A DNA stretch of 64,000 bases, taken from Desulfobulbaceae bacterium (GTDB lineage: Bacteria > Desulfobacterota > Desulfobulbia > Desulfobulbales > Desulfocapsaceae). Shown here piece after piece: positions 1,064 through 63,594 of this stretch. A program made the translations under genes and the position numbers. Location of the stretch: positions 1 to 64,000 of the forward strand of contig JAABSV010000020.1 in NCBI GenBank assembly GCA_011390165.1. The letters are read 5' to 3'. Under the pieces are notes generated by a model. The model was not told where the DNA came from. It did no database searches and saw nothing but the letters and a program-made list of their open reading frames with translations. The stretch's first letter is position 1, and each line of letters begins with the position of its first letter.

Positions 1064-1852
1064 ATGTCTACCAGCCCTCAGCAACCGGAGCAACCGGCGA
1101 GATCCCTGCAGGTCGACCGTTTGACCAAGGAGTACGTGGCCGGCAAACCGATTCTCAGCAATATCAGTTTCGAGGTCTCAGGCCGCAGCAGCGTGGCAAT
1201 CATCGGCCCTTCCGGGACCGGAAAAAGCACCCTGATCCGCTGTGTCAACAAGTTGATCCCACCCACATCCGGAAATATCTACGTCAGTGGCGAGAACATC
1301 ACCGTCCTGCACGGCGCTCGGCTCCGCCGGGCACGGCGAAAAATCGGCATGGTCTTTCAGGAGTTCAACCTGGTGGAACGGCTGACGGTAATGGAGAATG
1401 TCCTCTGCGGCCGGCTCGGCTACGTCTCCTCCCTGCGGGCCTGGCTGCGCCGCTACCCGCAGCGGGACATTGAGATGGCCTTCTCCCTGCTCGAATCCAT
1501 CGGCCTGCTCGACTTCACCCGCCAGCGCGCCGACAGCCTCTCCGGCGGCCAGCGCCAGCGGGTCGGCATCGCCCGGGCCATCATGCAGGAGCCGCACGTA
1601 CTCCTCGCCGACGAACCGACCTCCTCGCTTGACCCGAAGACCAGCGTCGAGATCATGGAACTGCTGGTGTCTCTGACCGAAACCCACCAGATTCCCCTCT
1701 TGATCAACATCCACGACGTGGAACTGGCCAAACGCTTCACCAATCGGGTGATCGGCATTGCCCGTGGTGGTATCGTCTTTGACGGCCCTCCCGCCGAGTT
1801 GAGCAACGACCACCTGAAAGATATCTACGGCGGGGAGAACTGGCTACAATGA
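1064..1852 (+). CDS. phnC: Phosphonate-type ABC transporter ATP-binding protein PhnC
   Basis: 262-residue ABC ATPase that powers import at the inner membrane. Walker [10 protein letters not shown] is at residues 48-56, the Q-loop in MVFQEF near 97-101, the signature LSGGQRQRV at 159-167, and Walker B with the catalytic glutamate [11 protein letters not shown] at about 180-190. Length and the [19 protein letters not shown] context match PhnC. Its stop overlaps the next start as ATGA, indicating translational coupling to the first permease. A roughly 110-nt gap with a strong hairpin separates it from phnD. Confidence 0.93.
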
Positions 1853-2634
1853 GCGGGGGAACAACAACTCGCCGCCCCTTCCAGACCAACTGGCTGGCCC
1901 GGGCCGGCTGGCTGCTCGCCTTCCTCTATGCCCTCTATGCCGCCAACCTTCTCGATATCTCCTGGGAGCGGTTCCTGATCGGCCTCGACAACGGAGCAAA
2001 ATTCATCGGCGAGATGGTTCCGCCCAACTTCTCCCGCTGGCAACTGCTGCTTGGCAACCTCATCGAAACCATCGAGATCGCCATCATCGCCTCGGCCTTC
2101 GGGGTGTTCATCTCCCTGCCGGTCGGCCTCCTTGCCGCCCGCAACCTGATGCCGGCCTGGGTCACCTGGCCGTTTCGCACCTTCATTGCCCTCTGCCGCT
2201 CCTTCCACCCGGTGATTTTTGCCATTCTCTTTGTCAAGGCGGTCGGTTTCGGCCCCCTGGCCGGCATCCTCACCCTGATTTTCGCCTCCATCGGCTTCAT
2301 CGGCAAGCTCTTTGCCGAGGCGATCGAAGAGATCTCGCTCAAACCGGTTGAGGCCCTGCGTGCCACCGGGGCACCCTTCATGAGCGTCATCGTCTATGCG
2401 GTCCTCCCCCAGGTGCTCAACCGCTTTATCGGTTTCTCCTCCTACCAGCTCGACGCCAACCTGCGCAACTCCACCATGGTGGGGATCGTCGGAGCCGGCG
2501 GTATCGGCGGCACCCTCTTTTCCGCCTTCCAGCGCTTTGACTACGATTTCCTGGCGGCAATCCTCATCTCGATCATCGCCCTGGTGATGGTCAGCGAGTA
2601 TATCTCCACCCAGGTCAAGAAGGTGTTCCAATGA
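1849..2634 (+). CDS. phnE: Phosphonate-type ABC transporter permease PhnE (first copy)
   Basis: 261-residue inner-membrane permease of the BPD transport family. An N-terminal membrane segment lies near residues 15-35 and further hydrophobic segments fill the protein. The cytoplasmic EAA-like loop ([16 protein letters not shown]) couples to the ATPase, and the C-terminal [11 protein letters not shown] motif is typical of PhnE. The ATG overlaps the phnC stop by 4 nt, and its own stop overlaps the second permease in the same way. It most likely forms a heterodimer with the next protein. Confidence 0.92.
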
Positions 2635-3425
2635 TCCAGGAAAAACTCTGGCAGCGCTTCACCTTCGCTGAGCGGCTCAGTCGATTCGCCGTCTTTCTTG
2701 GTTTTGCCGTCGCCCTGGCGCTCTCCATGCGCACCGTGCAGATCATCCCCGAGTTCCTCTACGATGCCCCCACCCAGGTCGCCGACCTGCTCGGACGGAT
2801 GTGGCCAATGGATTTCGACTACTACCCGCAGGGAGTGCACGCGACAATGATGGAGACGCTGCACATCGCCAGTCTCGGCACCCTGCTCTCCATCTTCATG
2901 GCCGTTCCGGTGGGTATCCTCGGCGCCAACAACATCGTCCGCCAGCCGCTGCTGCACTGGCTCTCCAAACTGATCCTGGTCTCCTCCCGCTCGGTGAACA
3001 CCCTGGTCTGGGCCCTGCTCTTCGTGGCGGTGTTCGGCCCCGGCGCCCTGGCCGGGACCATCTGCATCGCCTTCCGTTCGGTGGGCTTTGTCGGCAAGCT
3101 GTTTGCCGAGGCCCTGGAGGAGTGCAATCCCGGACCGATCGAGGCCCTGCAGGCAGCCGGAGCCCCCTGGCTGAGTCTTTTTCTCAAAGGATACTGGCCC
3201 CAGGTTGCCCCGGCCTTCTGGGGGATCTTCCTCTTCCGCTGGGACATCAACGTCCGCGAGTCGGCGGTGATCGGCCTGGTCGGCGCCGGCGGCATCGGCA
3301 TGGTCTTGGACGACGCCCTCAACCTCTTCTTCTGGGACCGGGTGGCGGTGATCCTGCTCAGCATCTTCACCGTGGTGATCGTCGCCGAACTGCTGGTCAC
3401 CGCCATCCGCAAGCGGATCATCTGA
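2631..3425 (+). CDS. phnE: Phosphonate-type ABC transporter permease PhnE (second copy)
   Basis: 264-residue second BPD-type permease. It has the same layout as the preceding gene: EAA loop around EECNPGPIEALQAAGAPW and the VGAGGIGMVLDDAL motif near the C-terminus. The start overlaps the upstream stop as ATGA. Two different PhnE subunits are a common arrangement (phnDCE1E2) in phosphonate and phosphite transporters. It is the last transporter gene; the next gene is a small cupin after 14 nt. Confidence 0.92.
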   Translation: MIQEKLWQRFTFAERLSRFAVFLGFAVALALSMRTVQIIPEFLYDAPTQVADLLGRMWPMDFDYYPQGVHATMMETLHIASLGTLLSIFMAVPVGILGANNIVRQPLLHWLSKLILVSSRSVNTLVWALLFVAVFGPGALAGTICIAFRSVGFVGKLFAEALEECNPGPIEALQAAGAPWLSLFLKGYWPQVAPAFWGIFLFRWDINVRESAVIGLVGAGGIGMVLDDALNLFFWDRVAVILLSIFTVVIVAELLVTAIRKRII

Positions 3426-17043: not shown

Positions 17044-18639
17044 TCAGGCCTGGGTAACCCGGTACACCTCCTCGATGGTGGTAACCCCCCGAACCACCTT
17101 GTCGGCACCATCCCGGCGCAGGGAGACCATCCCCGCCGCCACCGCCAGCCGTCTGATCTGGTTGGCGTCGGCGGTCTCCAGCACCAGCGACTTCAGTTCC
17201 TCGCTCATCAGCAGCAGCTCATAGATACCGCAGCGCCCCCGGTAGCCGGTGTGCAGGCAGGCCGGGCAGCCCCGGCCGCGAAAGACCATGCCATCCCGGC
17301 AGTCAGCGGGGTGCAGGTCGATTTTTGCCAGCATCGCCTCGGTCGGCCGGTAGGACTCCCGACACTCCGGGCAGATCATCCGCACCAGCCGCTGGGCGAG
17401 AATGGCGTTCACTGACGAGGCGATCAGAAATGGTTCAATGCCCATATCGCGCAGCCTGGTGATCGCCCCGGCCGAGTCGTTGGTGTGCAGGGTGGAGAAG
17501 ACCAGATGGCCGGTGAGCGCCGACTGGATGGCGATCTCGGCGGTCTCACTGTCGCGGATCTCCCCCACCAGGATGACATCCGGGTCCTGCCGGACGATGG
17601 AGCGCAGGCCGGTGGCGAAGGTGAGGTTGATCTTCGCGTTGACCTGCATCTGGCCAATGCCGTCGATGCGGTACTCGATGGGGTCTTCGACGGTAATGAT
17701 ATTGATATCGGTGCTGTTGATCGCCGACAGAGCGGCGTAGAGGGTGGTGGTCTTGCCGGAGCCGGTGGGGCCGGTGACCAGGACAATGCCGTTGGCGGCA
17801 CGGATTTCCCGATCGAAGTGGTGGAGGCGATCGGCCGGCATCCCCAGGCCGCTGAGGGAGATCATGGCCGCCGTTTTGCGCAGGAGGCGCAGGACCACCC
17901 GCTCGCCGAAGGCGGTGGGCAGGGTGGAGACGCGGACATCGATCTCCCGGTCGGCAATCTTCAACTCGATCCGCCCGTCCTGGGGCAGCCTCCTTTCGGC
18001 GATGTTCAGCCTGGCCATGATTTTGATCCGCGAGACCAGCGCCGCCTGGACATGGCGGGGCGGGGTGAGCATGTCGTAGAGTATCCCGTCCAGCCGCTGG
18101 CGGATCTTCAGGCTGTTCTGGTAGGGCTCGATATGGATATCGGAGGCATTGTCCCGTACCGCCTGGGCAAACATCAGGTTGACCAGGCGGATCACCGGCG
18201 AGTCGCTGGTGTCGTCAAGCAGGTCGCCAACCTCCTCGATTTCCGTGAACAGCCGCTCGGCATCCTCGGCGCCGATATCCTCCATCAGCGCATCGGCGGA
18301 GCCCCCCCGGCTGTCGTAGGCGTGGTTGATCGCCTTGATGATCTGCCGGGCCGGAACCAGCACCTGCGGGACGTTGGCGAGGCCGAGAAGACGGCAGAGC
18401 GCGTCGCAGGCCTGAAAGGAGCTCGGGTCGTTGACGGCGATGAAGTTCTCCTCCCGGGTTCGGACCGGGACCAGCCGGTGCTGCTTGAGAAAGGCGATGG
18501 GCAGACGTTCGGCAAAGTCGGTACGGATTTCAGCCGGCAACTGCCGGCGTACCGCCATGCCGTACTGCCGCGCCAACCCCTCCAGCCGGGAAAACTCGTC
18601 CTCGGCATCCCTGCCGGGCAGCTCACTTTCCTGCCGCAT
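17044..18639 (-). CDS. gspE: Type II secretion ATPase GspE
   Basis: 531-residue cytoplasmic hexameric ATPase that drives pseudopilus assembly. An N-terminal regulatory region with an MshEN-like fold covers about residues 10-110. Walker A GPTGSGKTT is at 290-298, followed by the Asp box (ITVEDPIEY), Walker B DVILVGEIRD and the His box (HLVFSTLHTND). The two CxxC pairs of the zinc domain are CPEC and CPAC in the C-terminal third. Start ATG at 18639 overlaps the gspD end by 17 nt. An upstream in-frame extension to 18780 is low-complexity Arg/Pro sequence inside gspD and was not used. Last gene of the operon. Confidence 0.94.
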   Translation of the reverse strand: MRQESELPGRDAEDEFSRLEGLARQYGMAVRRQLPAEIRTDFAERLPIAFLKQHRLVPVRTREENFIAVNDPSSFQACDALCRLLGLANVPQVLVPARQIIKAINHAYDSRGGSADALMEDIGAEDAERLFTEIEEVGDLLDDTSDSPVIRLVNLMFAQAVRDNASDIHIEPYQNSLKIRQRLDGILYDMLTPPRHVQAALVSRIKIMARLNIAERRLPQDGRIELKIADREIDVRVSTLPTAFGERVVLRLLRKTAAMISLSGLGMPADRLHHFDREIRAANGIVLVTGPTGSGKTTTLYAALSAINSTDINIITVEDPIEYRIDGIGQMQVNAKINLTFATGLRSIVRQDPDVILVGEIRDSETAEIAIQSALTGHLVFSTLHTNDSAGAITRLRDMGIEPFLIASSVNAILAQRLVRMICPECRESYRPTEAMLAKIDLHPADCRDGMVFRGRGCPACLHTGYRGRCGIYELLLMSEELKSLVLETADANQIRRLAVAAGMVSLRRDGADKVVRGVTTIEEVYRVTQA

Positions 18640-20920
18640 CCTGCCCGTCCCGGTCTCGCTCTTCCTCTTCCGCCGCCCCGGCCAGCCTCTCCAGGGCCTC
18701 CCGGGCCACCTGCAGGAGGGGCACCCCGACCCGGTCGGCAGCGCTTGCCTTCTCCGCCAGGGCGGCCGTCCCGCCGGCAATCACCGCCTGGTACATGGCC
18801 GCCGCCTGCCGCGGATTTCCCTCCTTTTCCAGAATCGCCCCCATATTGATCAGGGCATAGGGATTGCTCGGATCGACGGCCAGAACCTCGGCAAAGTATT
18901 CGCGGGCGGCATTGCTCTGGCCGGCACGCAGCTTCTCATAGCCCTGGCGGACCAGACGGCTGGTCTGTTCCGGGTCGGCCGCCGGTGGCAGCTCCGCCGT
19001 GGTAGCGGGAAGGAGACTCTCCTTCTCCCTGCTCATTGCTGCCAGTTCCACCGGGTTGCGGACGATCCGCGGGGTAACGAAGATGAACATATTGGTCTTG
19101 GTGCTGGCGGTGGTCCGGGTCTTGAACAACCAGCCCAAGAGCGGAATATCGCCCAACAGGGGCACTTTCCACTCGCTCTCGGTGGCGTCGTGGCCGATTA
19201 TGCCGCCGATGACGATGGTATCGCGGTCATTGAGGACCACCGTGGTGGTGGCGGTCCGTTTGTAGGTGGTGGGGGTGTCGCTGTTGCCGCCGCCCTTTAT
19301 CCGCACCACCTCGGTCTCGATCTCCAGCCTCAGGGTGTCGGCCTGATTGATATGGGGGACAATCGAGAGTTTGGTGGCCACATCACGGTACTCGTACTGG
19401 CTGTAGTCCTGTTCCGTACTGGTGGTGTTGCGGCTGGTGATGTAGGGGACGTTCTCGCCGACGGAAATCTCCGCCTTCTTGTTATCGGTGGTGAGAATCT
19501 GCGGGGTGGAGATGATATTGATGGACGAATCGGTCTTGTAGGCCCGGAGAATGGCGGCGATGTTCGGAAAGGTGACCCCGCCGATGCGGATTCCCTGCTT
19601 GAGGAGACCAAGGGAGTACCCGGAGGGCAGGGTCGGGTCGTCACCGCTGATTCCGGGGAGGAGATCGAAGCCGGAGGAGCCGCTGAAACCGGTAACCAGC
19701 TGACCACTGCCGCCATCGAAGGCACCGGCGGCGGCCCACTGTACGCCGACATCGAAGCTCTTGTCGGCATCCACCTCCATGATCAGTGCCTCGAGATAAA
19801 CCATCCGCCTGGGGATATCGAGCTTGCCGATCACCTCCTCCAGCACCAGGTACTCCTCCGGGGAGGCGGTAATAATCAGCGCATTGGTCTCCTCGTCGGC
19901 CATCACCCGGACATTTTTTGAAATTTCCGCCGCCTGAGCGCCCTTCTCCTCTTCCGCCTGGCCCGTATCCGGCAGAAGGCTGAGCACCTTGACCAGTTCG
20001 GCGGCGGTGGCGTTCTGCAGGTAATAGACATGGATATTGCCTGCCGCTCTCGGGGCCTCGGTATCAAGCATCGCCACCAGTTGGCGCAGGCGCCCAAGTT
20101 CGGTGGCGCTGGCCAGAAGAATGAGGGCATTGCCCTGCTCATAGGGTACAATGATGGTCTCGCCGGCAGCAGCCTCCGCCTGCGGTGGTACCGTGCTTTG
20201 CCGGCTGATGGAGGTAAGGATTCTGGCCAGGTCGGCGGCTTTTGCCTTCTCCAGTTTGAGTACAGCCACCTCCTTCTCCCGGGACTCGACGTCCAGCTGA
20301 GCGATGATGCCGAGGAGCTTTTGGATGTTGGCCCGGGTGTCGGTGATGAGCAGCATGGCGGAGGGGGAATGGGCGATGAGCAGCGAGGTCTGGGCGACAA
20401 GGGGGGTGAGGACCCGTTTCATCTCTTCCGGCGAGGCGTGCAGCAACGGCACCAGCTGGGTGACCACCCGGTCTTCCGGGCGGTCCGAACCACCATCCTG
20501 GAAGAGCTGCAGATTCTGGGAACGGGCCCGGGCCGAGGGGAGAATCTTGGTCACCGCCCCGGCCGGGACGGTGGTATAGCCGTACACTTCCAATACCGAC
20601 TCGAATACCCGGTACGCCTCCTCCTCCGATATCCGGGTGGGTGAGAGGATGGTTACGTTCCCCTGCACGGCCCGGTCAACGACAAAGTTCCTGCCGGTCA
20701 GTTCGCTGATATATTTTATGAAGAGATTGATATCAACACTGTCGAAATCGATGGTGATGGAGCGCTCCGAGGCCGTTCCGACCGGGATTCCGGCAGCCGC
20801 TGGTGGTTGGGCCGCCGCCGGCGCCACCGAGGCGACGGCAAGGAGGAGGGTGAAGGCAACGACTCCGGCAACAGCATGGACCCTCCGCCACGCCTGACAA
20901 AAACTCGGCAAACTGGTCAT
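18623..20920 (-). CDS. gspD: Type II secretion outer-membrane secretin GspD
   Basis: 765-residue secretin forming the outer-membrane channel. A signal sequence (hydrophobic run VVAFTLLLAVASVAPAAA) is followed by the N0 domain (ITIDFDSVDINLFIKYISE) and N1-N3 repeats. The secretin domain contains NIISTPQILTTDNKKAEISVGENVPY and IVIGGIIGHDATESEWKVPLLGDIPLLGWLF. Unusually, the last 110 residues form a TPR-like region (GYEKLRAGQSNAAREYFAEV and the following helix pair) rather than a short S-domain tail. ATG at 20920 overlaps the gspC stop by one base (TGATG); the TTG one codon earlier is a weaker option. Confidence 0.93.
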   Translation of the reverse strand: MTSLPSFCQAWRRVHAVAGVVAFTLLLAVASVAPAAAQPPAAAGIPVGTASERSITIDFDSVDINLFIKYISELTGRNFVVDRAVQGNVTILSPTRISEEEAYRVFESVLEVYGYTTVPAGAVTKILPSARARSQNLQLFQDGGSDRPEDRVVTQLVPLLHASPEEMKRVLTPLVAQTSLLIAHSPSAMLLITDTRANIQKLLGIIAQLDVESREKEVAVLKLEKAKAADLARILTSISRQSTVPPQAEAAAGETIIVPYEQGNALILLASATELGRLRQLVAMLDTEAPRAAGNIHVYYLQNATAAELVKVLSLLPDTGQAEEEKGAQAAEISKNVRVMADEETNALIITASPEEYLVLEEVIGKLDIPRRMVYLEALIMEVDADKSFDVGVQWAAAGAFDGGSGQLVTGFSGSSGFDLLPGISGDDPTLPSGYSLGLLKQGIRIGGVTFPNIAAILRAYKTDSSINIISTPQILTTDNKKAEISVGENVPYITSRNTTSTEQDYSQYEYRDVATKLSIVPHINQADTLRLEIETEVVRIKGGGNSDTPTTYKRTATTTVVLNDRDTIVIGGIIGHDATESEWKVPLLGDIPLLGWLFKTRTTASTKTNMFIFVTPRIVRNPVELAAMSREKESLLPATTAELPPAADPEQTSRLVRQGYEKLRAGQSNAAREYFAEVLAVDPSNPYALINMGAILEKEGNPRQAAAMYQAVIAGGTAALAEKASAADRVGVPLLQVAREALERLAGAAEEEERDRDGQDAAGK

Positions 20921-21633
20921 CAATCTCTTCCCCCGACACCATCGTTACCAACAACACTCTCTGGATCTCTTGTCCGGGCCGGACTGACCAGGCGGACCAC
21001 TCTCGGCCTGTCGTCGGCCGTCGGCAGAAGACCATCCCCGGCCGGTTGCGCCCCGGACTCCGCCGCCACCGGGGAAAAATCCACCGGCTGGGAGACCACC
21101 GCCACCGGCGGCAAAGCTGCACTCTCCCCTGCTGACGGTAAGGAGGGGCGGATTGTCGCCGCCTCCCGCCAATCGAGGACCTCTTCCCGCCCCTGCCGGA
21201 AGACAACCACCTCGCCTCGGCGAATCTCCCTGATCACCGCATCCTCAATGGTTTCACCGAGCGAATAGAGCTGCTGTCGCTGGCTTTTTTTATCGAAAAA
21301 GACTGCCCTCGGGATATCCCCGCCAACCGTCCCAAGCAAAACGATGTCCAGTCCACTTCCCTCTCCCGACTCCCGCCGGGGGGAGCTAGGCGTCAGCGCC
21401 GTGCCACCTTCCGGCAACCAGCCACCGAACAGGTTGCGTTGGAGGATGATCCGGTGGTCATACCCCTCCCCCTCGCCAACCACAACCGGCACCGGCCCGG
21501 CAGCGCTGACCGGAGCGGCTTTGCCTGGCTCTCGAAGCAGCAGGTACTCAAGAGCCAGATAGCCCCCTTCCACCACACCGACAGAAAAGAGGGTCACCAC
21601 CAGCAGAGAGAAAAGGGTACGCCGGTCAAACAT
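20920..21633 (-). CDS. gspC: Type II secretion inner-membrane linker GspC-like
   Basis: 237-residue bitopic protein: short cytoplasmic start, one membrane helix (LFSLLVVTLFSVGVVEGGYLA), a Pro/Val linker and the GspC homology region (IILQRNLFGG followed by LLGTVGGDIPRAVFFDKKS and LGETIEDAVIREI). GspC links the inner-membrane platform to the secretin. No PDZ or coiled-coil domain follows; the C-terminus is about 90 residues rich in Ala/Pro/Val. It lies between gspN and gspD, with its stop touching the gspD start. Confidence 0.82.
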   Translation of the reverse strand: MFDRRTLFSLLVVTLFSVGVVEGGYLALEYLLLREPGKAAPVSAAGPVPVVVGEGEGYDHRIILQRNLFGGWLPEGGTALTPSSPRRESGEGSGLDIVLLGTVGGDIPRAVFFDKKSQRQQLYSLGETIEDAVIREIRRGEVVVFRQGREEVLDWREAATIRPSLPSAGESAALPPVAVVSQPVDFSPVAAESGAQPAGDGLLPTADDRPRVVRLVSPARTRDPESVVGNDGVGGRD

Positions 21634-53212: not shown

Positions 53213-54457
53213 TTATGACGGTGCCTTGTCTTCGCTGGCGTGAACCGGCGGCAAGGCCCTCGTCATGACCATCAACACCACGGCCACAAGGCTCAGGGCA
53301 GCACAGAGCTGATAGATGGTCGCATATCCCCACTGCGCCAGGACAGGTGCGCCGATGATCGGCCCGAGAAAAAAGCCGGCCTGGAACATCTGGGCGCCAA
53401 GATTGATATTGAATGCCCGAAAACGCTGGGGCGACACGTCAAATATCAGGCTGTTGAACACCGGCATGGCGATCCCCCAGCCAAGGCCAAAGAACAGGCC
53501 GAGTGCCAGGAGGAGGAATTTCCCGCTCAGATGCGCCAGGACCAGATAGCAAAGAGACAGGCCCAGCATGGTCCAGATGGCCAGGCGGTTTTTGTCGACC
53601 CGATCGAAAACCGATCCGGCAATCACCCGAACCCCGATCTCACCGACCGTGGAAAGAGTAAGGAAGAGCCCGGCAAAGGCCATGCCGATCGATCGCCCGT
53701 AACCGTCGAGAAAGAAGAAAACCAGCGCATGGCAGCTATACAGCAGCAGCATAGACAGAAGCAGAAGGATAATGCGCGGATTTCGTAGATTTTTGCCAAT
53801 CTCGGCAAGCGTCAGGCTGCGTGCCTGCTGTCTGCCATCATGGCGGGCACCCTTGCCATCCACTGCCCAGACCAGGGGAAACATGAACAGGGTCAGGACG
53901 GCAAAAGCCAACAGAATGTTATTGAAGCCGCCCAGCAGGGTATCGAGAAAAGGCAGAAACGGTGGCACCAGGGTATTGGGAATGAGCGTCACAACGGCAA
54001 TATACCCGAAAAACTGGGCGCTGCGGTTGGTGGGAATGACATCAACGATAAGGGTCATCAGGGCGGCGCCGACCACGGCGAAGGAAATGCCGTGCAGGAC
54101 ACGGACCAGGAAAAGCCCCCAGAACCCTTCGGCCAGGGAATAGGCGGCAAGCGAACCGGCCGCCAAAAAGGTCCCCAGAAAGAGCAGCGGCCGGGCATTG
54201 CCGGCATGAAAAAACGGGCTGATCAGCGGCCGCAGCACCAGGGCGGTTGCGGCCAGGGCTCCGATCAGCAGACCGTAATCCCCCGGATCGATGGCCATGG
54301 TGCGCAGGTGATCGTAAAAACCGAAAAACACTGAAATATTCGCATACGCCAAAAAGGCGGCACCCATAAGACAAAAAAACTTTCGGGAGTGGAGGAGGCT
54401 GGCAAAGGTTCTGCCGGGTTCCTCACCACCTTCCGGCTGTCGACCGGTCTCTCTCAA
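53213..54457 (-). CDS. MFS transporter following the molybdenum hydroxylase
   Basis: 414 residues, 12 hydrophobic helices. Helix 1 begins near KFFCLMGAAFLAYANISVFF; loop motifs include VIPTNRSAQFFGY and SVFDRVDKNRLAIW. I place the start at TTG 54457, which overlaps the upstream stop as TTGA and has GGGGAGGA 6 nt before it. The first ATG (54367) would cut into helix 1, and a GTG at 54505 lies deep in the upstream gene. Co-transcription with the hydroxylase suggests import of its substrate or export of its product. Confidence 0.82.
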   Translation of the reverse strand: MRETGRQPEGGEEPGRTFASLLHSRKFFCLMGAAFLAYANISVFFGFYDHLRTMAIDPGDYGLLIGALAATALVLRPLISPFFHAGNARPLLFLGTFLAAGSLAAYSLAEGFWGLFLVRVLHGISFAVVGAALMTLIVDVIPTNRSAQFFGYIAVVTLIPNTLVPPFLPFLDTLLGGFNNILLAFAVLTLFMFPLVWAVDGKGARHDGRQQARSLTLAEIGKNLRNPRIILLLLSMLLLYSCHALVFFFLDGYGRSIGMAFAGLFLTLSTVGEIGVRVIAGSVFDRVDKNRLAIWTMLGLSLCYLVLAHLSGKFLLLALGLFFGLGWGIAMPVFNSLIFDVSPQRFRAFNINLGAQMFQAGFFLGPIIGAPVLAQWGYATIYQLCAALSLVAVVLMVMTRALPPVHASEDKAPS

Positions 54458-55878
54458 CGGTCTTCCTCCCCGGAGAATTCCTGGGCAGCATCCGGAAAAC
54501 AGCACCAGTCGGAGTGCAGGAGGCGCAGCAGCAGATTGCCGGCAACCATTCGCCGATACTCGCCACTCGCCCGGACATCGTCAATGGGAGCAATCGCATT
54601 TCTGACCAGCGGGATGAGCTTTTCCAGCGTTTCTCGATTGAGGGTGCTGCCGATCAGGGCGGCCTCGACTGCGGCGATTCTCTCCACCGTCGGACCGACA
54701 CTGCCCCAGGCCATCCGCGCCGACGTGACCACAGAATCGGCATTGACCTCGAGGACTGCGGCTAAACTGGCCACCGAGCAGGCCAGGGCATTGCGCAAAC
54801 CGACCTTCTCGTAATGGTGAACCAACCCTGCCGGCGGGCGGGGCAGGATGATTGCCGAGAGGATTTCACCGGCGGCGAGAGCGGTTGTGCCGGGACCGAG
54901 GATGAAACCGGCAATCGGCAAACGCCTGCTGCCGGCAGCCGAACTCAGTTCGACCTCGGCGCCGAGCACATACAGAGGCGGCAGGCTGTCGCCCGCAGGA
55001 GAGGCGGTAACGATGTTGCCGCCGATTGTTCCCATGCGGCGGATATGGGGTGAACCGAGAGAAAGCAGGGCCTTTCTCAGCACCGGAAAAAACTCGTTGG
55101 TGCACGGATGGTCAAGCAACTGGGCGTGACTGGTCAGCGCGCCGACCCGTACCGCGTCGGAGCTTTCGCTGATGCCCCGCAGGCCATCGATGTTGCCGAG
55201 ATCAATCAGGCCTGGCGGGTCGATGCGCCGGTTCCTGAGCCATACCAGCAGATCGGTGCCTCCGGCAATGAGCTGCGCTTTCGGGTTCTCGGCGCTGATC
55301 GCCCACAATTCCGACAAACTTTTTGGCGAATAGACCGGTCGCCCCGCCACAGAACTCGTTGAAACGAAAGTGCCGGCAAACGGCCCTGCCGGCGCCGGCA
55401 AACACGGGTTCAAAGTGGCAGCAGGTGCCCTCCCCTCCTCCATGGCATCAAGAATCTTGCCATAGCCGGTGCAGCGGCAAAGATTGCCACTGATCGCCTC
55501 GGCCATTTCCTGACGGTCGGCCCGCGGACGCCGGGCGAGAAACTCGCCGGCGGTAATGACCATCCCGGGAGTGCAGAATCCGCACTGCACCGCCCCCTTG
55601 TCGACAAAGGCCTGCTGGAGGGGGTGCAGTGCTTCCGGGCCGGGGGCCATTCCTTCAATGGTGGTGACCTGTGTACCGGCAAGGCGGCCGGCAAGCGTCA
55701 GGCAGGACAACCTTGGCTCCCCATCGACCAGGATCGTGCAGGCCCCGCATTCGCCGGTACCGCACCCTTCCTTGGTGCCAGTCAAGGCAAGGTCTTCGCG
55801 CAGCACATCGACAGCCCGGCGATCGGCGGCGACCGTCAACTCCACCTCATGACCATTGACGACAAAGGGGAGCTTCAT
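54454..55878 (-). CDS. Molybdenum hydroxylase, fused [2Fe-2S] and FAD subunit
   Basis: 474 residues. The N-terminal two [2Fe-2S] domains carry GCGTGECGACTILVDG (plant-type ferredoxin cluster) and QCGFCTPGM with CRCTGY (second cluster), about residues 1-155. A linker follows, then an FAD domain of the CO dehydrogenase flavoprotein/xanthine dehydrogenase type (AQLIAGGTDLLVWLRN and RRMGTIGGNIVTASPAGDSL). In many relatives the two parts are separate genes, so this is a fused small-medium subunit as in XdhA. GGAGGTAACCG precedes the ATG. It takes electrons from the large subunit, whose stop overlaps its start as ATGA. Confidence 0.9.
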   Translation of the reverse strand: MKLPFVVNGHEVELTVAADRRAVDVLREDLALTGTKEGCGTGECGACTILVDGEPRLSCLTLAGRLAGTQVTTIEGMAPGPEALHPLQQAFVDKGAVQCGFCTPGMVITAGEFLARRPRADRQEMAEAISGNLCRCTGYGKILDAMEEGRAPAATLNPCLPAPAGPFAGTFVSTSSVAGRPVYSPKSLSELWAISAENPKAQLIAGGTDLLVWLRNRRIDPPGLIDLGNIDGLRGISESSDAVRVGALTSHAQLLDHPCTNEFFPVLRKALLSLGSPHIRRMGTIGGNIVTASPAGDSLPPLYVLGAEVELSSAAGSRRLPIAGFILGPGTTALAAGEILSAIILPRPPAGLVHHYEKVGLRNALACSVASLAAVLEVNADSVVTSARMAWGSVGPTVERIAAVEAALIGSTLNRETLEKLIPLVRNAIAPIDDVRASGEYRRMVAGNLLLRLLHSDWCCFPDAAQEFSGEEDR

Positions 55879-58175
55879 CGGTTACCTCCAGCCGAAAGGG
55901 CCCTCAGCACCCGCTCGGCGGTCAGGGGAAAAATGGTGAGCCGATGACCGCAGGCGTCGGCCACCGCGTTGGCGACCGCCGGAGCGGGTCCGTCGATACC
56001 GATTTCGCCGGCGCCCTTCATACCGTAGGGTCCGCTTCGTTCAGGCAGTGTCACCGCGATGGTGTCGATTTCCGGGACATCGACGGCCGTGGGGATGATA
56101 TAGGTGGTGAAATCGGCATTGTGCATCCGCCCCGAAGCGCACCGCAGTTCCTCGGACAGGGCGTACCCCAGACCCTGGACGACGCCGCCTTCCTGCTGCC
56201 CGGCAAAGAGAACGGGATTGATGATGCAGCCGCAGTCACTGACCGTGAGATACTTGACCACGGTCACCCGGCCAGTCAGTTCATCCACCTCGACACTGGC
56301 GAGGTGGACGGCAAAGGAAAAGATGGCGTGGGGAAAGCCGTGGATCCGAAGATTTGCCTCGCACCCCGCCATCTCCCGGGAAACCGCCGCCCGGAAATGG
56401 TTGGTGGCGCTTCGTTCCGCCGGCTGGAGCATGCCGCCAAACAGAGTGAGCGGTACTTCCCGGCCGCTGGGCAGGTGGCGGATTCCGCCCGGCACGAGGG
56501 CCATCTCGGCCCGATCCCCGGCCATCAGGATGTCGGCAGCCCTGGCCAACAACCGCTCTTTCAGGGCCTCGGTCGCGCCGATCAGGGCGTTGCCGAAGGT
56601 GTAGGTCGTTCTGCTGGCGGAAGAGGAGCCGGAGGGAAAGGTCCGGGCGGTATCCGGCAGCACCAGTTCCAGAGAACCCGGGCACTGGCAGAGGATGTCG
56701 CCGGCGATCTGCAGATAGGTGGCGCCGTTTCCCTGGCCCATGTCAACGACGCCGCCAAGAACGCGAAACACCCCCTGTTCGGTCAGTTCAATACCTGCCG
56801 TCGCCGAATCCGGCACCACCGGCCCATAGCCCATGCCGTGCCAGACGCAGGCCAGCCCGGTTCCCCGCCGGGTAAACGGGCCGGCAGCCTCCTTCCAGGC
56901 CGAGCGCTGCCGCCACAGGGGGTGCGCCGCCACCTTCTGCAAACAGTCGGCAAGGCCGATCGAGCCGTGGCGGGTGACCCCGGCCGGACAGCGATCCCCC
57001 CGCACCAGAGCATTTCTGGTGCGGATCTGCAGCGGCGAAAGTTGCAGGCGTTCCGCCAGGATATCCATCATCGACTCGATGGCGGCGGCGACCTGCGGTA
57101 CGCCGAAGCCACGAAAGGCACCGGACAGCGGGTTGTTGGTATACACCGCCCACACTTCAAGGCGGGAGTGGGGTATGCGGTACGGTCCGCCGGCATGTTC
57201 CAGGCCCAAGGTCGCCGCCGCGCCTCCCAGATGGTCATAGGGGCCGGTATCGTAGTAGATCCGGGCGGATAGCGCCTGCAAACGGCCATCGCCACCAGCG
57301 CCAAGCTTGTAGTACAAACGGGCGGGATGGCGTTTGGATCCAGCCAGAAAACTTTCTTCCCGGCTCCAACTCATCTTGATGGCTCTGCCGGGACAGTGCA
57401 GGGCGGCAAGGGCCAGGAGGCTTTGCACGGTAATTCCGTCCTTGCCGCCGAAGGCCCCGCCGCAGAACGGAGCGACAATACGGATTCGCCGCGCCTCAAT
57501 GCCGATGGCTTCAGCCACCTCAAAACGGTCCCGGAAGGGGGTCTGCGTCGATACGACAATTTCCAGGCTGCCATCCGCATGGGCAATGGCCCTGCCGTTT
57601 TCCGTTTCAAGAAAGGCATGGGCCTGACGCGGCAACTCAAATTCGGCTTCGACGATCTCAGCGCAGTCGGCAAAACCATCTTCCCCCACCCCTGTCACAT
57701 GGCAGGCATGGAAAAGGGCATTGCCCTGAGGGTGGTCGGCATGGAGGATGGGCGCCTGCGGCTGCAACGCCTCCTCCGGGTCAAAGACCGCCGGCAGGAT
57801 CTCCAGGTCGGTGGAAATCAAGGCCAAGGCGGCGGCCAGGGCGGCTTTGCTTTCGGCGACCACCAAGGCCAGCGCATCGCCGCAATGCCGTACCCGGTCA
57901 TCGGCCAGCACCGGCTGGTCCTTGCGGAGAACGCCCTGCCGGTTGCTGCCGACGACATCTGCCGCGGTCAGCACGGCGACCACTCCGGCAACCTGTCTTG
58001 CCGCCTGGCAATCAATGGCCCGGATCAGCGCATGCGCGACACCAGCCCGTTTGACTCCGGCCCAGAGCAGATCGGAGCCATACCAGTCGGCGGCAAAGCG
58101 CTCGACCCCGGTAACCTTGGTGGCGGCATCAGGTTTCGGCATACCCTCACCGACCTGGTACACTCTATCTTTCAT
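55875..58175 (-). CDS. Molybdenum hydroxylase large (molybdopterin) subunit
   Basis: 766 residues of the xanthine dehydrogenase/aldehyde oxidase type. Domain 1 starts VGEGMPKPDAATKVTGVERFAADW; the Moco-binding part contains FCGGAFGGKDG and SGAFRGFGVPQVAAAIE. The base-catalyst glutamate is in GMKGAGEIGIDGPAPAVANA near the C-terminus. The CODH-specific CSFR loop is absent, so this is a hydroxylase for an N-heterocycle or aldehyde rather than CO. It forms the operon with the Fe-S/FAD subunit and MFS carrier, and is divergent from the GNAT/ligase-lyase genes. Confidence 0.9.
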   Translation of the reverse strand: MKDRVYQVGEGMPKPDAATKVTGVERFAADWYGSDLLWAGVKRAGVAHALIRAIDCQAARQVAGVVAVLTAADVVGSNRQGVLRKDQPVLADDRVRHCGDALALVVAESKAALAAALALISTDLEILPAVFDPEEALQPQAPILHADHPQGNALFHACHVTGVGEDGFADCAEIVEAEFELPRQAHAFLETENGRAIAHADGSLEIVVSTQTPFRDRFEVAEAIGIEARRIRIVAPFCGGAFGGKDGITVQSLLALAALHCPGRAIKMSWSREESFLAGSKRHPARLYYKLGAGGDGRLQALSARIYYDTGPYDHLGGAAATLGLEHAGGPYRIPHSRLEVWAVYTNNPLSGAFRGFGVPQVAAAIESMMDILAERLQLSPLQIRTRNALVRGDRCPAGVTRHGSIGLADCLQKVAAHPLWRQRSAWKEAAGPFTRRGTGLACVWHGMGYGPVVPDSATAGIELTEQGVFRVLGGVVDMGQGNGATYLQIAGDILCQCPGSLELVLPDTARTFPSGSSSASRTTYTFGNALIGATEALKERLLARAADILMAGDRAEMALVPGGIRHLPSGREVPLTLFGGMLQPAERSATNHFRAAVSREMAGCEANLRIHGFPHAIFSFAVHLASVEVDELTGRVTVVKYLTVSDCGCIINPVLFAGQQEGGVVQGLGYALSEELRCASGRMHNADFTTYIIPTAVDVPEIDTIAVTLPERSGPYGMKGAGEIGIDGPAPAVANAVADACGHRLTIFPLTAERVLRALSAGGNR

Positions 58176-58474: not shown

Positions 58475-59533
58475 ATGGACACGGCAAGAGAAACGTGTTT
58501 GACGGCACTGCGAAGTGCACCGTATACCATTGAGCCCGGCCAAAAGTACACCGTCGACGATTTTCAGCCAGGCGACGCCTTGGGAGTTGCGAGGCTGTAC
58601 CACGTGGTATATGGCGAGATGTTTCCCATTGATTCAGTCTATGATCCCAGCGAGTTGGTGCGGCTCAATGCCGGAATGGACCAGCACCAGGTGGTCGGAC
58701 GTACGGACAAGGGCGACATCATCGGCCTCTACGGTATCTTTCGCAACCCGCCTGGGCGGCACATTATGGAAGGCGGCTCCTGGCTCGTCCACCCGGCCTA
58801 TCGCAAAACGCCCCTGGCCATGCGCATGGCCGAGAGGCTGCACCTGCATCCACCGGAGTATCTCGGTCTTGATGTCATGTTCGGGCAGAGTGTCACCGAC
58901 CACCGGATCACCCAGAAAATGGCCGATAAGTTTCACAGTCTGTCCTGCGCCCTGGAGATTGAAGCCATGCCGCCCCGGCCGGAACGTGAAGAAGGCTGGT
59001 CGACCGGCCGCATTTCCCTGCTTGATGGCTTCATGATCTATCATGACCGCCCGCACACCGTCTTTCTTCCCCGTTTCTATGCCGACACCCTGCGCTCCCT
59101 CTATGCCGCGCGGGGCGTCGATCGCCGATTTTCCGAGGATCGCCCCCCGGAGCAACCGCGAACGCAGGGGACGATACAACTCGTCGACAATGCCGGCTTG
59201 CTGAAAACCACCATAGAACAACCTGGGTCCGATGCTGCCGAATACCTGACTGACCTTGAATCCCGTTACCCGGGCCGCCATGTCTATCAGCTTATCCTGC
59301 CCCTCTCGCGCCCGGGAAGTTCCCTGGTTGTGGAGGCGGCCCGTTCTGCCGGCTACTTTTTCGGCGGTCTGCTCCCTCTGTGGTTCGATCAAGACGGTTT
59401 CTTGCTGCAAAAGGTTGCCGGCGATCCGGATTTTACACAAATCAAGCTCTTTACCGAGGAAGCCAAAACCCTTTTGCGTCTCATCGTTGCCGATCGACAA
59501 GCCCTGCCCTCCCCCGCCGGGCAGTGCTCATAA
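58475..59533 (+). CDS. Two-part GNAT-like protein, stand-alone homologue of the fusion's middle region
   Basis: 352 residues, cytoplasmic. The first half (about 20-165) has a GNAT-like pattern: YTVDDFQPGDALGVARLYHVVYG, then a strand DIIGLYGIFR and a WLVHPAYRKTPLAMRMAERL helix where acyl-CoA would bind. A second conserved part (about 265-340) ends GYFFGGLLPLWFDQDGFLLQKV. The same two blocks, in the same order, occur in the middle of the next protein (HPAYRSSRVALALQEHI and GYFFGGLLPRWFDDDGLLMQRV). GGGGAAGG precedes the ATG. 86 nt separate it from the fusion gene; co-transcription is likely. Acetyl/acyl transfer is inferred from fold only. Confidence 0.75.
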   Translation: MDTARETCLTALRSAPYTIEPGQKYTVDDFQPGDALGVARLYHVVYGEMFPIDSVYDPSELVRLNAGMDQHQVVGRTDKGDIIGLYGIFRNPPGRHIMEGGSWLVHPAYRKTPLAMRMAERLHLHPPEYLGLDVMFGQSVTDHRITQKMADKFHSLSCALEIEAMPPRPEREEGWSTGRISLLDGFMIYHDRPHTVFLPRFYADTLRSLYAARGVDRRFSEDRPPEQPRTQGTIQLVDNAGLLKTTIEQPGSDAAEYLTDLESRYPGRHVYQLILPLSRPGSSLVVEAARSAGYFFGGLLPLWFDQDGFLLQKVAGDPDFTQIKLFTEEAKTLLRLIVADRQALPSPAGQCS

Positions 59534-59619: not shown

Positions 59620-62600
59620 ATGATGGAGCAGCTTTTTCTTGATTTCGATGATTTTTTCGTCGTCAGCCGCGGCCTGGTCTTTGCCGAGATCAAAAAAATC
59701 CGGAAAATCTCCGATGTCTTCGGCGATGAGTTGCAGCTGTCGCCGGACAGTGCCTTCGGCACCGATATCCTGGCGGCAAGCAGCGAACAAATGGCTGAAA
59801 TAGCCGCTCGAGTCGCCGGTTTCTTCGGCCTTGACCGGGAAGAATCCGCCGAGTTGACCGGCCTGCCGAGCCTCGGCCGCTGGGCGCAGCACCTGCAGGA
59901 GCAGGTGGGCTCGCGACCGAAGATCATCACCTTCCATACCTCCGGCAGCACCGGCGAGCCGAAACCGATTGTCCGCGACTATTATTTTCTCGAGCAGGAC
60001 GCCATCCATCTCGGGGAGATGCTGCGGGGAAGCAGACACGTCATCGGTCTGGTGCCGCCGCACCATATTTACGGTTTCATCTATACCGTCCTCATCCCCA
60101 AGGTTTTGCAGGCACGGCGCAGTGACCAGCGTTTCCGGCGACCGGCAGCGATCATGAGAGATCTCGAACCGGGCGATGCAGTGATCGGCTTTCCCCATAT
60201 CTGGCAGCTCTGTGCCAAAACCAAGGAACGTTTTCCGGCCTCCGTCATCGGCACGACCTCGACCGGGCCCTGCCCACCGGAGATTATCCGCACCCTGAGG
60301 CGCCAGGGCCTGCAGACGATGATCGAGATCTACGGCTCCTCGGAGAGCGGCGCCATGGGCTATCGTACCAGCCCCGACGATCCGCTCACCCTGATGTCCA
60401 CCTGGCAGCGCTTGGCTGACGACCGCTTTGTCCGTCAGCTTGAAGATGGCGGCCAATCCGCACCCTTTGCCTTCCAGGATGTGCTGGAGTGGGAGGACGA
60501 GACCCATTTTCGGGTGCAAAAACGCCTCGACAGTGCCGTACAGGTGGCAGGTATCAATATCTACCCGGCCCGGGTCGATGCGACCCTGCGCCGCCACGCA
60601 ACCGTGGCCGACTGCACGGTGCGGCTGATGCGCCCGGAGGAAGGCGACCGGCTGAAGGCCTTTGTCGTCCTGAAAGAGGGCGTTCCCCCGGGCAGCGGCA
60701 TTACCGACGAACTGCGCACCTTTCTCGCCAAAGAGCTGAGCCATCTGGAACAACCAAAGTCGATTGTCTTTGGCCCGGCTCTGCCGCGCAACGAAATCGG
60801 CAAGCTGGCCGACTGGACCATCGAGGCCAAGACGGTCGCCCTGACCCTTGATCAGGCTCTGGAAAAACTCAAGGCGGAACATCGCCCCGTCCCCGACGGC
60901 CAACCATTCACCGTTGACCTCTTGAAGGCGGAGGACGCCTGGGGAGTGGCCCGGCTCTTTTACGAGGTGTACGGCTCCTCCTTCCCCTTTGCGACCTACT
61001 ATATTCCGGACCGGCTCCTCGAGGAAAACCGCTTGCGCCTGCTTTTCAGCACCGTGGCCCGGACGCCGGCCGGGGACATTGTCGGCTACGGCGGCATGTT
61101 TCGCAGTTCAGCGCCGCATCCGGGGGTCTATGAAATTGGCTCCCACGTCATCCATCCGGCCTACCGCAGTTCCCGCGTCGCCCTCGCCCTGCAGGAACAT
61201 ATCAAGGAGGTGCTCATTCCCCTGCAGAAGGTTGAGATGTCCTTCAGTGAGGCCCCCTGCCATCAGGTGGTCACCCAGAAATTCGCGGCCATGAGCGGCC
61301 TCGTTGAAACGGCGCTGGAGATCGGCCTGATGCCGGCCGGCGCCTATGGGCCGTCTCCGGACTTCCCGGAAGACCGGGTTTCGGCGCTGTTGCTTTTTGG
61401 CAAGACTGCGGACCGGCAGCGTCGCCTGTACCTCCCGGACGTGTACCAGGAGGCCCTGGAATTTCTCCTCGAGGGGCTGGCTGTTGACCGGCTGGCCCTG
61501 CCGGCAGCCGAGCAACCGCCGGCCAGCATCGCCACGCGGGTGGCAACGGAATACTTTGACTTTGCCAAGGTTGCCCGGGTCCATGTGCTGACCATGGGCG
61601 AGGATTTCGCCCGCTCTCTTGCCGGCTTCGAGGCCCAGGCGCTGAAGTCCGGGGCCCGGGTGTTGCAGGTATTCGTCAATCTCGGCGAAGCCTGGTGCGC
61701 CAGCGGTATCCATACCCTGCGGGAGCAGGGATATTTTTTCGGCGGGCTCTTGCCGCGCTGGTTCGATGACGATGGCCTGCTCATGCAGCGTGTCTTCGAC
61801 CTGCCGGACATCGCCTCGATCAAGCTCTATTCGCAACGGTCGCACCGCATCCTTGATCTCATTCGCCGGGATATCGAGTCCAACCCGGCCTGCACGGCAC
61901 TGCACAGGCGGCCGGTGCTCAGGCCGACGGCAAAAGCGCGCTTCACCGCCGCCGACCTCTCCGAGGTCATCCTGTCCGGCGAAGGGCTAACCATCGAGGA
62001 GGTCACGGCCGCAGCCCGCTATGCCCGTCCCGTTTCTCTGACCAGAGACGGGGCCATTCTGGCCCGGGTCGACGGCTCGGCCTCCTTTATCGAATGGGCG
62101 GTGCGAACCGGAGAGCCGATCTACGGGGTCAACACCGGCTTTGGCGGCATGGCCAATGTCATGATAGCCGAAAGTGACCTCTGCGCCCTGCAAAACAACC
62201 TGCTCCGCTTTTTACAGGTCTGTGCCGGCGACTATCTGCCCCTGGAGGACGTCCGCGCCGCCATGCTGCTCCGGGCCAACTCTCACCTGCGCGGGGCTTC
62301 GGGAGTACGGCGCGAACTGATCGAGCGCATCCTGGTCTTTCTCAATAACGGCGTGGTGCCGCTGGTTCGAAGCATGGGGTCGATCGGGGCAAGCGGCGAT
62401 CTGGCGCCACTGGCCTCGATCACCGGGGCGCTGGTCGGCGCCGATGGCTGTTTTCAGGTGAAGATGGGAGAGGAAACCCTAAGCTGTCTGGCCGCCCTGG
62501 AGCGCCTCGGCCTCAAGCCCCTCACTCTCGGCCCGAAAGAAGGGCTGGGCATGGTGAACGGTACGTCGGTGATGACCGGCATCGCTGCCAACTGCCTCTA

Positions 62601-63594
62601 CGACGCTCGCCGGCTGACCGCTCTGGCCCTTGGTTTCCACGCCCTGGTCGTCCAGGCACTGCGCGGCTCGAACCAGTCGTTTCACCCCTTTATCCAGCAA
62701 CTGAAACCGCACCCGGGGCAGATCCTGGCGGCGGAGATAATGCTCGGACTGCTGGACGGCTCGACCATGTGCCGCAACGAGCTCGATGGCCACCACGACG
62801 CCGAAGATGGGCAACCGGTTCAGGACCGCTATTCCCTGCGCTGCCTGCCGCAGTTCGTCGGTCCGGTCCTCGACGGCATGAGGCAGGCCGCAGCGGCGAT
62901 CCAGATCGAAATGAACTCGGCCAACGACAATCCGCTCATCGACGGCGACAACTGCCTCAGTCTGCACAGCGGCAATTTCCTCGGCCAGTATGTGGCGGTG
63001 TCGATGGATCACTTGCGCTACTACCTGGGGCTGATGGCCAAACACATGGATACCCAGATAGCCCTGCTGGTGGCACCGGAGTTCAACTCCGGTCTGCCGC
63101 CGTCCCTGGTCGGCAACCCCGGGAGGCGGGTGAATATGGGCCTGAAGGGCCTGCAGATCGCCGGCAACTCGGTCATGCCGCTGCTCTCCTATTACGGTGC
63201 CCCGATTGCCGACCGTTTTCCGACCCATGCCGAGCAGTTCAATCAGAATATCAATAGCCAGGGCTTCAACTCCGCCAATCTGGCCCGCAAGTCCGTTCAG
63301 GCGCTGGAAACGTATCTGGCCATTTCCCTGATTTTCGGGGTACAGAGCGTTTCCCTGCGGGCCGGGAAGATGACCGGCAACCATGATCCGCGTCCCCTGC
63401 TCTCACCGGCGACCGCGGCACTTTACGAGGCGGTCCTTGCTGTTCTCGGTCACCAACAAAGCGCCGACCGACCATTAATCTACAATGATGACGAGCAATC
63501 GCTGGAGGCCATGATCGAGACCCTGAGCAGAGATATCGCCTGCGACGGGAAAACCGTGAGATCCATGGGACAGGTCATAGCCGGTCTGTGGTAG
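59620..63594 (+). CDS. Fusion of AMP-dependent aryl-CoA ligase, GNAT-like region and phenylalanine ammonia-lyase-like enzyme
   Basis: 1324 residues. 1-410: short acyl-adenylate-forming ligase without the usual large N-terminal lobe. A3 motif TSGSTGEPKP is at 107-116, YGSSESG at 238, the A8-like RLDSAVQVAGINIYP at about 302, and the catalytic A10 Lys395 in PRNEIGKL. The size and layout recall the coumarate-CoA ligases that activate photoactive yellow protein. 425-755: two GNAT-like blocks homologous to the preceding gene. 765-1324: MIO ammonia-lyase with Tyr835 (YGVNTGFGG), MIO triad Ala924-Ser925-Gly926 (GSIGASGDLAPL) and QDRYSLRCLP. Phe864-Leu865 sit where PALs have Phe-Leu and Rhodobacter TAL has His-Leu; HAL has Ser-His. 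AAGGAG precedes two adjacent ATGs (59620, 59623). Predicted to deaminate Phe or Tyr and activate the cinnamate formed. Confidence 0.88.
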   Translation: MMEQLFLDFDDFFVVSRGLVFAEIKKIRKISDVFGDELQLSPDSAFGTDILAASSEQMAEIAARVAGFFGLDREESAELTGLPSLGRWAQHLQEQVGSRPKIITFHTSGSTGEPKPIVRDYYFLEQDAIHLGEMLRGSRHVIGLVPPHHIYGFIYTVLIPKVLQARRSDQRFRRPAAIMRDLEPGDAVIGFPHIWQLCAKTKERFPASVIGTTSTGPCPPEIIRTLRRQGLQTMIEIYGSSESGAMGYRTSPDDPLTLMSTWQRLADDRFVRQLEDGGQSAPFAFQDVLEWEDETHFRVQKRLDSAVQVAGINIYPARVDATLRRHATVADCTVRLMRPEEGDRLKAFVVLKEGVPPGSGITDELRTFLAKELSHLEQPKSIVFGPALPRNEIGKLADWTIEAKTVALTLDQALEKLKAEHRPVPDGQPFTVDLLKAEDAWGVARLFYEVYGSSFPFATYYIPDRLLEENRLRLLFSTVARTPAGDIVGYGGMFRSSAPHPGVYEIGSHVIHPAYRSSRVALALQEHIKEVLIPLQKVEMSFSEAPCHQVVTQKFAAMSGLVETALEIGLMPAGAYGPSPDFPEDRVSALLLFGKTADRQRRLYLPDVYQEALEFLLEGLAVDRLALPAAEQPPASIATRVATEYFDFAKVARVHVLTMGEDFARSLAGFEAQALKSGARVLQVFVNLGEAWCASGIHTLREQGYFFGGLLPRWFDDDGLLMQRVFDLPDIASIKLYSQRSHRILDLIRRDIESNPACTALHRRPVLRPTAKARFTAADLSEVILSGEGLTIEEVTAAARYARPVSLTRDGAILARVDGSASFIEWAVRTGEPIYGVNTGFGGMANVMIAESDLCALQNNLLRFLQVCAGDYLPLEDVRAAMLLRANSHLRGASGVRRELIERILVFLNNGVVPLVRSMGSIGASGDLAPLASITGALVGADGCFQVKMGEETLSCLAALERLGLKPLTLGPKEGLGMVNGTSVMTGIAANCLYDARRLTALALGFHALVVQALRGSNQSFHPFIQQLKPHPGQILAAEIMLGLLDGSTMCRNELDGHHDAEDGQPVQDRYSLRCLPQFVGPVLDGMRQAAAAIQIEMNSANDNPLIDGDNCLSLHSGNFLGQYVAVSMDHLRYYLGLMAKHMDTQIALLVAPEFNSGLPPSLVGNPGRRVNMGLKGLQIAGNSVMPLLSYYGAPIADRFPTHAEQFNQNINSQGFNSANLARKSVQALETYLAISLIFGVQSVSLRAGKMTGNHDPRPLLSPATAALYEAVLAVLGHQQSADRPLIYNDDEQSLEAMIETLSRDIACDGKTVRSMGQVIAGLW

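Follow-up and report, generated by a model that had tools for sequence, protein, structure and literature searches.

The window analysed here is the whole 64,000-nucleotide stretch of contig JAABSV010000020.1 (positions 1 to 64,000 of the forward strand, assembly GCA_011390165.1) from a Desulfobulbaceae bacterium. On its forward strand, nt 59620–63594 translate as a single open frame of 1324 residues with one stop codon, at the end. The encoded fusion protein consists, from the N- to the C-terminus, of a short aryl-coenzyme A (CoA) ligase (residues 1–405, nt 59620–60834, Pfam AMP-binding and AMP-binding_C above cut-off), a domain with the fold of GCN5-related N-acetyltransferases (GNAT; residues ~412–760, nt 60853–61899, recognized by AlphaFold2 and Foldseek, with boundaries set in this analysis), and a 4-methylidene-imidazole-5-one (MIO) lyase of the phenylalanine ammonia-lyase (PAL) type (residues 783–1324, nt 61966–63591, Pfam Lyase_aromatic). 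A preliminary description of this DNA had proposed the order ligase, GNAT-like, MIO lyase, and translation, Pfam and the GNAT fold match confirm it. The frame starts with Met-Met and has AAGGAG close upstream; the longer open reading frame starting at nt 59380 is a mechanical extension. By eye, a ribosome-binding-like sequence precedes the start codon in each of the five fusions that were found.

The full-length fusion occurs in five genomes of two families. The copy in G019, a genome consisting of a single contig, is 89% identical to that of the window and the full-length copy in G007 83%, while those of G504 and G501, also full length, show 69% each. Over the fusion gene the DNA of G501 is identical to that of L052, a named record of a Desulfovibrio sp. 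metagenome-assembled genome. The architecture was detected in 3 of 57 genomes (the window's own, G007 and G019), the same three being found among 93 genomes of the family, and in 2 of 288 genomes of the second family (G501 and G504). Across a sample of 395 genomes of the phylum, the lyase-domain query was positive in the window's own genome alone, and TIGR02372 in five, the other four having free ligases as judged by frame length. Among named species genomes, one fusion (L052) was found in the best 80 of 177 ligase relatives, a list that may omit records near the window's genome. No plasmid among 72,556 records covers 80% of the ligase plus GNAT; plasmid matches to the lyase all lie below 60% identity, with the 15 listed at 34–38%. 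Among viral contigs there were two pattern matches and no relative.

All five frames are open and retain the motifs, the MIO triad and the active-site blocks. Over all ten pairs of fusions, the ratio of nonsynonymous to synonymous substitution rates (dN/dS) is 0.12–0.28 for the ligase, 0.11–0.24 for the GNAT and 0.06–0.18 for the lyase, although dS exceeds 1 in many pairs and the individual values are rough. The fusion architecture is thus rare yet maintained. Since it is intact at full length in four further genomes, one of them a single contig, the fusion is not an assembly artefact; together with the dN/dS constraint, this also rules out chance read-through. Pfam and NCBIfam scans of the fusion matched single parts only. 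The ligase-GNAT-lyase architecture was not found in the literature searched, which comprised open-licence articles, and no published family describing it turned up there. Each of the three parts is already known; it is their combination in one protein that did not turn up.

Within the ligase, AMP-binding covers residues 103–253 and AMP-binding_C residues 319–395. The motifs, by their usual names, are A3 (TSGSTGEPKP, residues 107–116, nt 59938–59967), an A5-like motif (nt 60328–60348), A8 (nt 60538–60567) and A10 with Lys395 (nt 60802–60804). TSGSTGEPKP, Lys395 and the Ala-Ser-Gly triad of the lyase are located where the preliminary description had placed them, and are kept in all five fusions. 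TIGR02372 matches the domain over model positions 13–386 of 386 (E 2.4e-76). The predicted structure folds like an acyl-CoA ligase, and its best Foldseek matches include CoA ligases for benzoate and anthranilate (E ~1e-17 to 1e-16).

In a 67-row ligase tree, the ligases of the five fusions form one clade (support 100/100) together with a free paralogue from the window's genome. The paralogue, a partial sequence, is 59% identical to the fusion ligase, and the separation of the fusion ligases from it is weakly supported (87/41). This clade joins 18 other ligases (100/99), mostly of Thermodesulfobacteriota, with two labelled Myxococcota. Members examined with Pfam (L039, L041 and L054–L057) adjoin ketosynthase or carrier genes, as do further ones judged by eye. 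Ligases adjacent to photoactive yellow protein (PYP) fall outside the fusion ligase's clade. The fusion ligase is a member of the PYP-type family whose closest clade is not that of PYP ligases. Its earlier likening to the ligases of the PYP chromophore thus holds for the TIGR02372 family, with no PYP match, and fails for the closest clade, which includes ketosynthase- and carrier-linked members. Two pieces, L043:1-876 and L044:9474-9728, lie at the ends of contigs C49 and C59, and are 59 and 58% identical to the fusion ligase. They may be one second free ligase of the fusion's clade in the host, split by the contig ends. The piece on C59 has genes for TRAP (tripartite ATP-independent periplasmic) transporters nearby.

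Pfam Lyase_aromatic covers residues 790–1272 (E 5.7e-143, 477 bits). The MIO triad Ala924-Ser925-Gly926 lies inside GSIGASGD (920–927), and the other active-site residues are Y835, F864-L865, N980 and Q1068/Y1071/R1074. The domain is 59.5% identical (319/536 residues) to structure 2nyn, which we take to be the PAL of Anabaena, and F864 aligns with a Phe of 2nyn. A second MIO lyase of the host shares only 35% identity with that of the fusion. In the excerpted text of PMC3992019, the selectivity position is given as Phe or His in PALs and His in tyrosine ammonia-lyases (TALs); by this excerpted rule F864 is of the Phe type. Because of F864 and the identity to the Anabaena enzyme, Phe is the likely substrate, rather than Tyr or His. 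Where cinnamate or coumarate had both been considered as product, Phe and cinnamate are favoured, and Tyr and His are not.

The GNAT assignment rests on the fold instead of the Pfam score. Acetyltransf_1 gives 13.6 bits on this region, short of the cut-off of 20.7, whereas an AlphaFold2 model of residues 407–777 (mean predicted local distance difference test, 88.3) matches GNAT structures of the PDB in Foldseek (best E 1.4e-9), with a TM-score by target length of at least 0.60 in 48 of the 50 matches listed. The domain carries the signature CHQVVTQK at residues 547–554 and YFFGGLLPRWFDDDGLLMQ at residues 705–723 in its C-terminal part. E505 and Q553 are invariant in all 74 rows of the GNAT family and E567 is present in 72 of them; all three are kept in the five fusions. 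Catalytic bases of GNATs are usually found on the fourth strand. E505 lies on that strand of the model, and is the predicted base of the domain.

The relatives of the domain connect it with ligases. In the 74-row GNAT tree, the fused GNATs form one clade (100/99) within a 17-row clade (99/95). Nine of the 12 unfused members of the latter (L050, contig C32 of the window's own genome, L190, L193, G095 C10, L194, L196, L197 and L199) adjoin a gene for an AMP-forming ligase; L186, L195 and L198 do not. Among the 52 other rows, leaving out the upstream partners described below, there is one such neighbour (L172). The Fisher value for this difference (p 8e-8), uncorrected for relatedness, overstates independence, as many rows are close relatives. 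Flanks of mostly 1.5 kb were examined, and some loci end sooner. A carrier protein, as a gene or a domain, accompanies all nine ligase-adjacent free GNATs, L050 included. Seven of the nine sets are ordered ligase, carrier, GNAT on one strand, the ligase preceding the GNAT as in the fusion; of the other two, L050 has its GNAT facing the ligase-carrier pair and C32 has it in first place. Since the subfamily of the fused GNAT is found both next to ligase genes and joined to a ligase in one protein, the ligase and GNAT of the fusion probably act one after the other; this association is the best evidence for it.

Some of these relatives have features of their own. In L194:1225-2550 a carrier-protein domain is seemingly fused to the N-terminus of the GNAT (PP-binding E 1.1e-4), and L197, L198 and L199 have long GNAT frames resembling that of L194, as judged from frame length together with tblastn, or by inspection. 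The carrier-GNAT frame of L194, L197 and L199 lies between a ligase gene and a molybdenum (Mo) hydroxylase gene. More widely, stand-alone relatives of this domain are repeatedly accompanied by genes for a HisC-like aminotransferase, Mo-hydroxylase, major facilitator superfamily (MFS) transporter, STAS, RsbW-like ATPase, NMT1 binding protein and SpoIIE phosphatase. Such loci are L049:3459-13822, L133, L135–L139 and L143 (each in part), and L200:2511-14018 on the Thiodictyon plasmid pTs417 (Chromatiaceae). By gene content, the recurrent GNAT/STAS/RsbW/NMT1/SpoIIE sets look like a synthesis-plus-sensing system, and no description of such a set was found in the literature searched.

In G095 (L168:6394-11274), argG and argH flank a sister GNAT, which in G641 (L171) is a neighbour of argG; the gene names are presumed from sequence likeness. 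A link to amino-acid N-acyltransferases is possible for this sister. As G095 and G641 are of one genus, an acceptor from the arginine pathway is only a lead.

Upstream of the fusion on the same strand, 86 bp away, lies a gene for a stand-alone GNAT-like protein of 352 residues (nt 58475–59533, forward strand). It is 33% identical to fusion residues 414–757. The earlier reading of the locus held for the fusion and overlooked this gene, a homologue of which occurs upstream of the fusion on the same strand at all five loci, 51–80% identical to the window's copy in the other four. The gaps are 95 bp in G007, 39 in G501, 54 in G504 and 922 in G019; the last (L047:8431-9352) contains short repeats. 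In the 74-row tree the upstream GNATs are in a clade of 13 rows, distant from the fused GNAT.

At lower coordinates, on the reverse strand, lie a molybdopterin hydroxylase large subunit of the xanthine dehydrogenase family (nt 55875–58175, Pfam MoCoBD_1/MoCoBD_2), the Fe-S/FAD small subunit of the hydroxylase (nt 54454–55878, Pfam Fer2, Fer2_2, FAD_binding_5 and CO_deh_flav_C) and an MFS transporter (nt 53213–54505, Pfam MFS_1 on its G019 homologue). Gene calls other than the fusion are simple codon-based picks. The MFS homologue is present at two of the five loci, the window and G019 (76% identity), and absent from the G007, G501 and G504 stretches. A Mo-hydroxylase as a fixed part of the system was rejected: the close pair occurs at the window locus only, with none in the 20-kb stretches of G019, G501 and G504, and G007 has a relative of 31% identity (over residues 8–761) ~4 kb from its fusion. 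Similarly, a sensing module is not a required partner, an NMT1-type gene occurring in four of the five fusion genomes and not in the window's own. Elsewhere in the window there are type II secretion-type genes for a GspE-like ATPase and a secretin (nt 17044–20923) and genes like phnC and phnE for a phosphonate-type ABC transporter (nt 1064–3425).

We propose, with moderate confidence, that the fusion is a trifunctional cinnamoyl-transfer enzyme which would take Phe through cinnamate and cinnamoyl-AMP/CoA to an acceptor. The C-terminal lyase would convert L-Phe to trans-cinnamate and ammonia, and the N-terminal ligase would use ATP to form cinnamoyl-AMP, probably followed by cinnamoyl-CoA. The central GNAT-fold domain, with E505 as the predicted base, would then pass the cinnamoyl group on to a small molecule, the likeliest acceptors being amines or amino acids. 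Its upstream GNAT-like neighbour probably acts on the acceptor or product, by supplying it or modifying it further. As MIO lyases are tetramers, the protein would be expected to have a core of four lyases with ligase and GNAT arms. What is directly seen is intact domains with conserved motifs, constraint on all three of them, the upstream partner at five of five loci and the ligase-GNAT association; we infer the Phe specificity, the channelling of cinnamate, the transfer step and the acceptor. The flow from lyase to ligase to GNAT, suggested in the preliminary description, gains independent support from phylogeny and gene neighbourhood, both of which point in its direction.

Several observations weigh against this proposal. 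Neither catalytic partner reaches its equivalog cut-off: the ligase scores 256.9 bits against 334.7 for TIGR02372, and the lyase 388.8 against 519.15 for TIGR01226, a model of 680 positions that is longer than the fusion's lyase domain. The prediction of ligase plus GNAT gives a predicted TM-score of 0.50 and no inter-domain arrangement. The classical pyrophosphate loop for CoA is R/Q-x-x-G-x-G/A, and the STAS-linked GNAT relatives keep a YRGGKGIF-like loop; in the fused GNAT it is shortened, the window copy having YR-SS-RVA without the usual glycines, and the donor may therefore be something other than acyl-CoA. Unlike the free ligase/GNAT pairs, the fusion lacks a carrier, both within the protein and nearby. 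Given the altered loop and the missing carrier, the donor could be the acyl adenylate or a CoA ester held otherwise. No acceptor-making gene is conserved across the five fusion loci. Moreover, the upstream GNATs from one host family are not sister to those from the other. Because free L184 and L179 branch between them, the pairing of upstream GNAT and fusion may have arisen more than once, or the free copies may derive from it.

A bolder extension, which we hold to be speculative and on the unlikely side, is a single-polypeptide synthase that makes a cinnamoyl-amide signal or metabolite de novo from Phe. It would be derived from an undescribed GNAT family of synthesis-plus-sensing neighbourhoods, unlike LuxI/LuxR. 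The neighbourhoods meant are those of acyl-activating enzymes, HisC-like aminotransferase, molybdenum hydroxylase and MFS with NMT1/STAS/RsbW/SpoIIE.

Alternatively, the GNAT-fold domain may be regulatory, sensing a ligand or acylating the A10 lysine, and so control the output of cinnamoyl-CoA for other enzymes. Control of acyl-CoA synthetases by GNATs is established, and the degenerate loop and the STAS, RsbW-like and SpoIIE genes beside relatives fit such a role. Nevertheless, the fused GNAT keeps the family-invariant residues, and in the tree its subclade is the ligase/carrier-linked one, away from the STAS/RsbW-linked rows. This last point is qualified by the subclade member G095 C10, which has an NMT1-type gene nearby. 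We regard regulation as an unlikely role.

A second alternative is a pigment of polyketide type, for which the protein would provide the aryl starter unit as happens in the aryl-polyene and flexirubin pathways. The ligase clade does group (100/99) with ligases found beside ketosynthase or carrier genes where checked. However, three ketosynthase and three carrier queries (tblastn, E 1e-4) found none within the 12–20 kb stretches round the five fusions, and the lyase is PAL-like, not TAL-like. We know of no GNAT in aryl-polyene or flexirubin pathways, to which the domain would be foreign. A pigment starter is accordingly a distinctly improbable product. More doubtful still is catabolism of phenylalanine, in which cinnamoyl-CoA would be beta-oxidised and the GNAT part would be structural. 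TRAP transporters can serve in the uptake of aromatic acids, and such genes do lie near one fragment of the second free ligase of the host. Yet the GNAT is constrained as much as the ligase, the conserved partner is another GNAT and not a catabolic gene, and an inspection of the fusion loci, by eye only, revealed no genes for beta-oxidation. The least probable by far is that the fusion serves a photoactive-yellow-like protein by making its p-coumaroyl chromophore, a role that the TIGR02372 family of the ligase and the many PYP-adjacent ligases among its relatives might suggest, but which we reject since TIGR02373 (PYP) has no match in the window's genome (~91% complete), no PYP lies near the L052 fusion, the PYP-adjacent ligases fall outside the fusion clade, and the lyase residue is of the Phe type.

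If the cinnamoyl-transfer enzyme that we propose is real, the first steps of phenylpropanoid metabolism, namely lyase, ligase and acyl transfer, would be united in one bacterial protein. Its hosts are Desulfovibrio-type and related bacteria, several of them anaerobes. An active enzyme would be a natural fusion for producing cinnamoyl conjugates. With it, a GNAT family found repeatedly in gene sets that are conserved and unexplained would gain its first function.

Known systems resemble the fusion in parts. The cyanobacterial PALs (Anabaena variabilis 2nyn and 3czo, Nostoc 2nyf) have the MIO triad, the F-L pair and the active-site blocks in common with it, but their structures are of the lyase alone (539–567 residues), which here is the C-terminal part of a larger protein. 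The free ligase/carrier/GNAT sets contain the GNAT subfamily of the fused domain; they have ligases of ~500 residues where complete and a carrier protein, with no lyase seen, whereas the fusion is without carrier. The ketosynthase-linked short ligases, presumably of aryl-polyene type, form the closest clade to the fusion ligase. They are free and lie beside ketosynthase or carrier genes where checked, unlike the ligases at the fusion loci. A comparable starter logic of lyase and ligase is found in flexirubin FlxA/FlxY, as far as the excerpt of PMC3992019 describes it. The PYP operons of Halorhodospira and Idiomarina have a p-coumaryl-CoA ligase of TIGR02372 and a TAL, an MIO lyase, as separate genes of one operon according to the available portion of PMC12826048; the fusion differs in its PAL-like lyase, its extra GNAT domain, its ligase outside the PYP-adjacent groups and the lack of a PYP match. 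To make cinnamoyl- and coumaroyl-homoserine lactones, E. coli was engineered with a ligase and RpaI, which is LuxI-type, put together artificially as separate genes, as outlined in the excerpt of PMC4659178. The fusion is likened to this route by logic alone, since both would lead from an aryl acid through a CoA ligase to transfer onto an amine.

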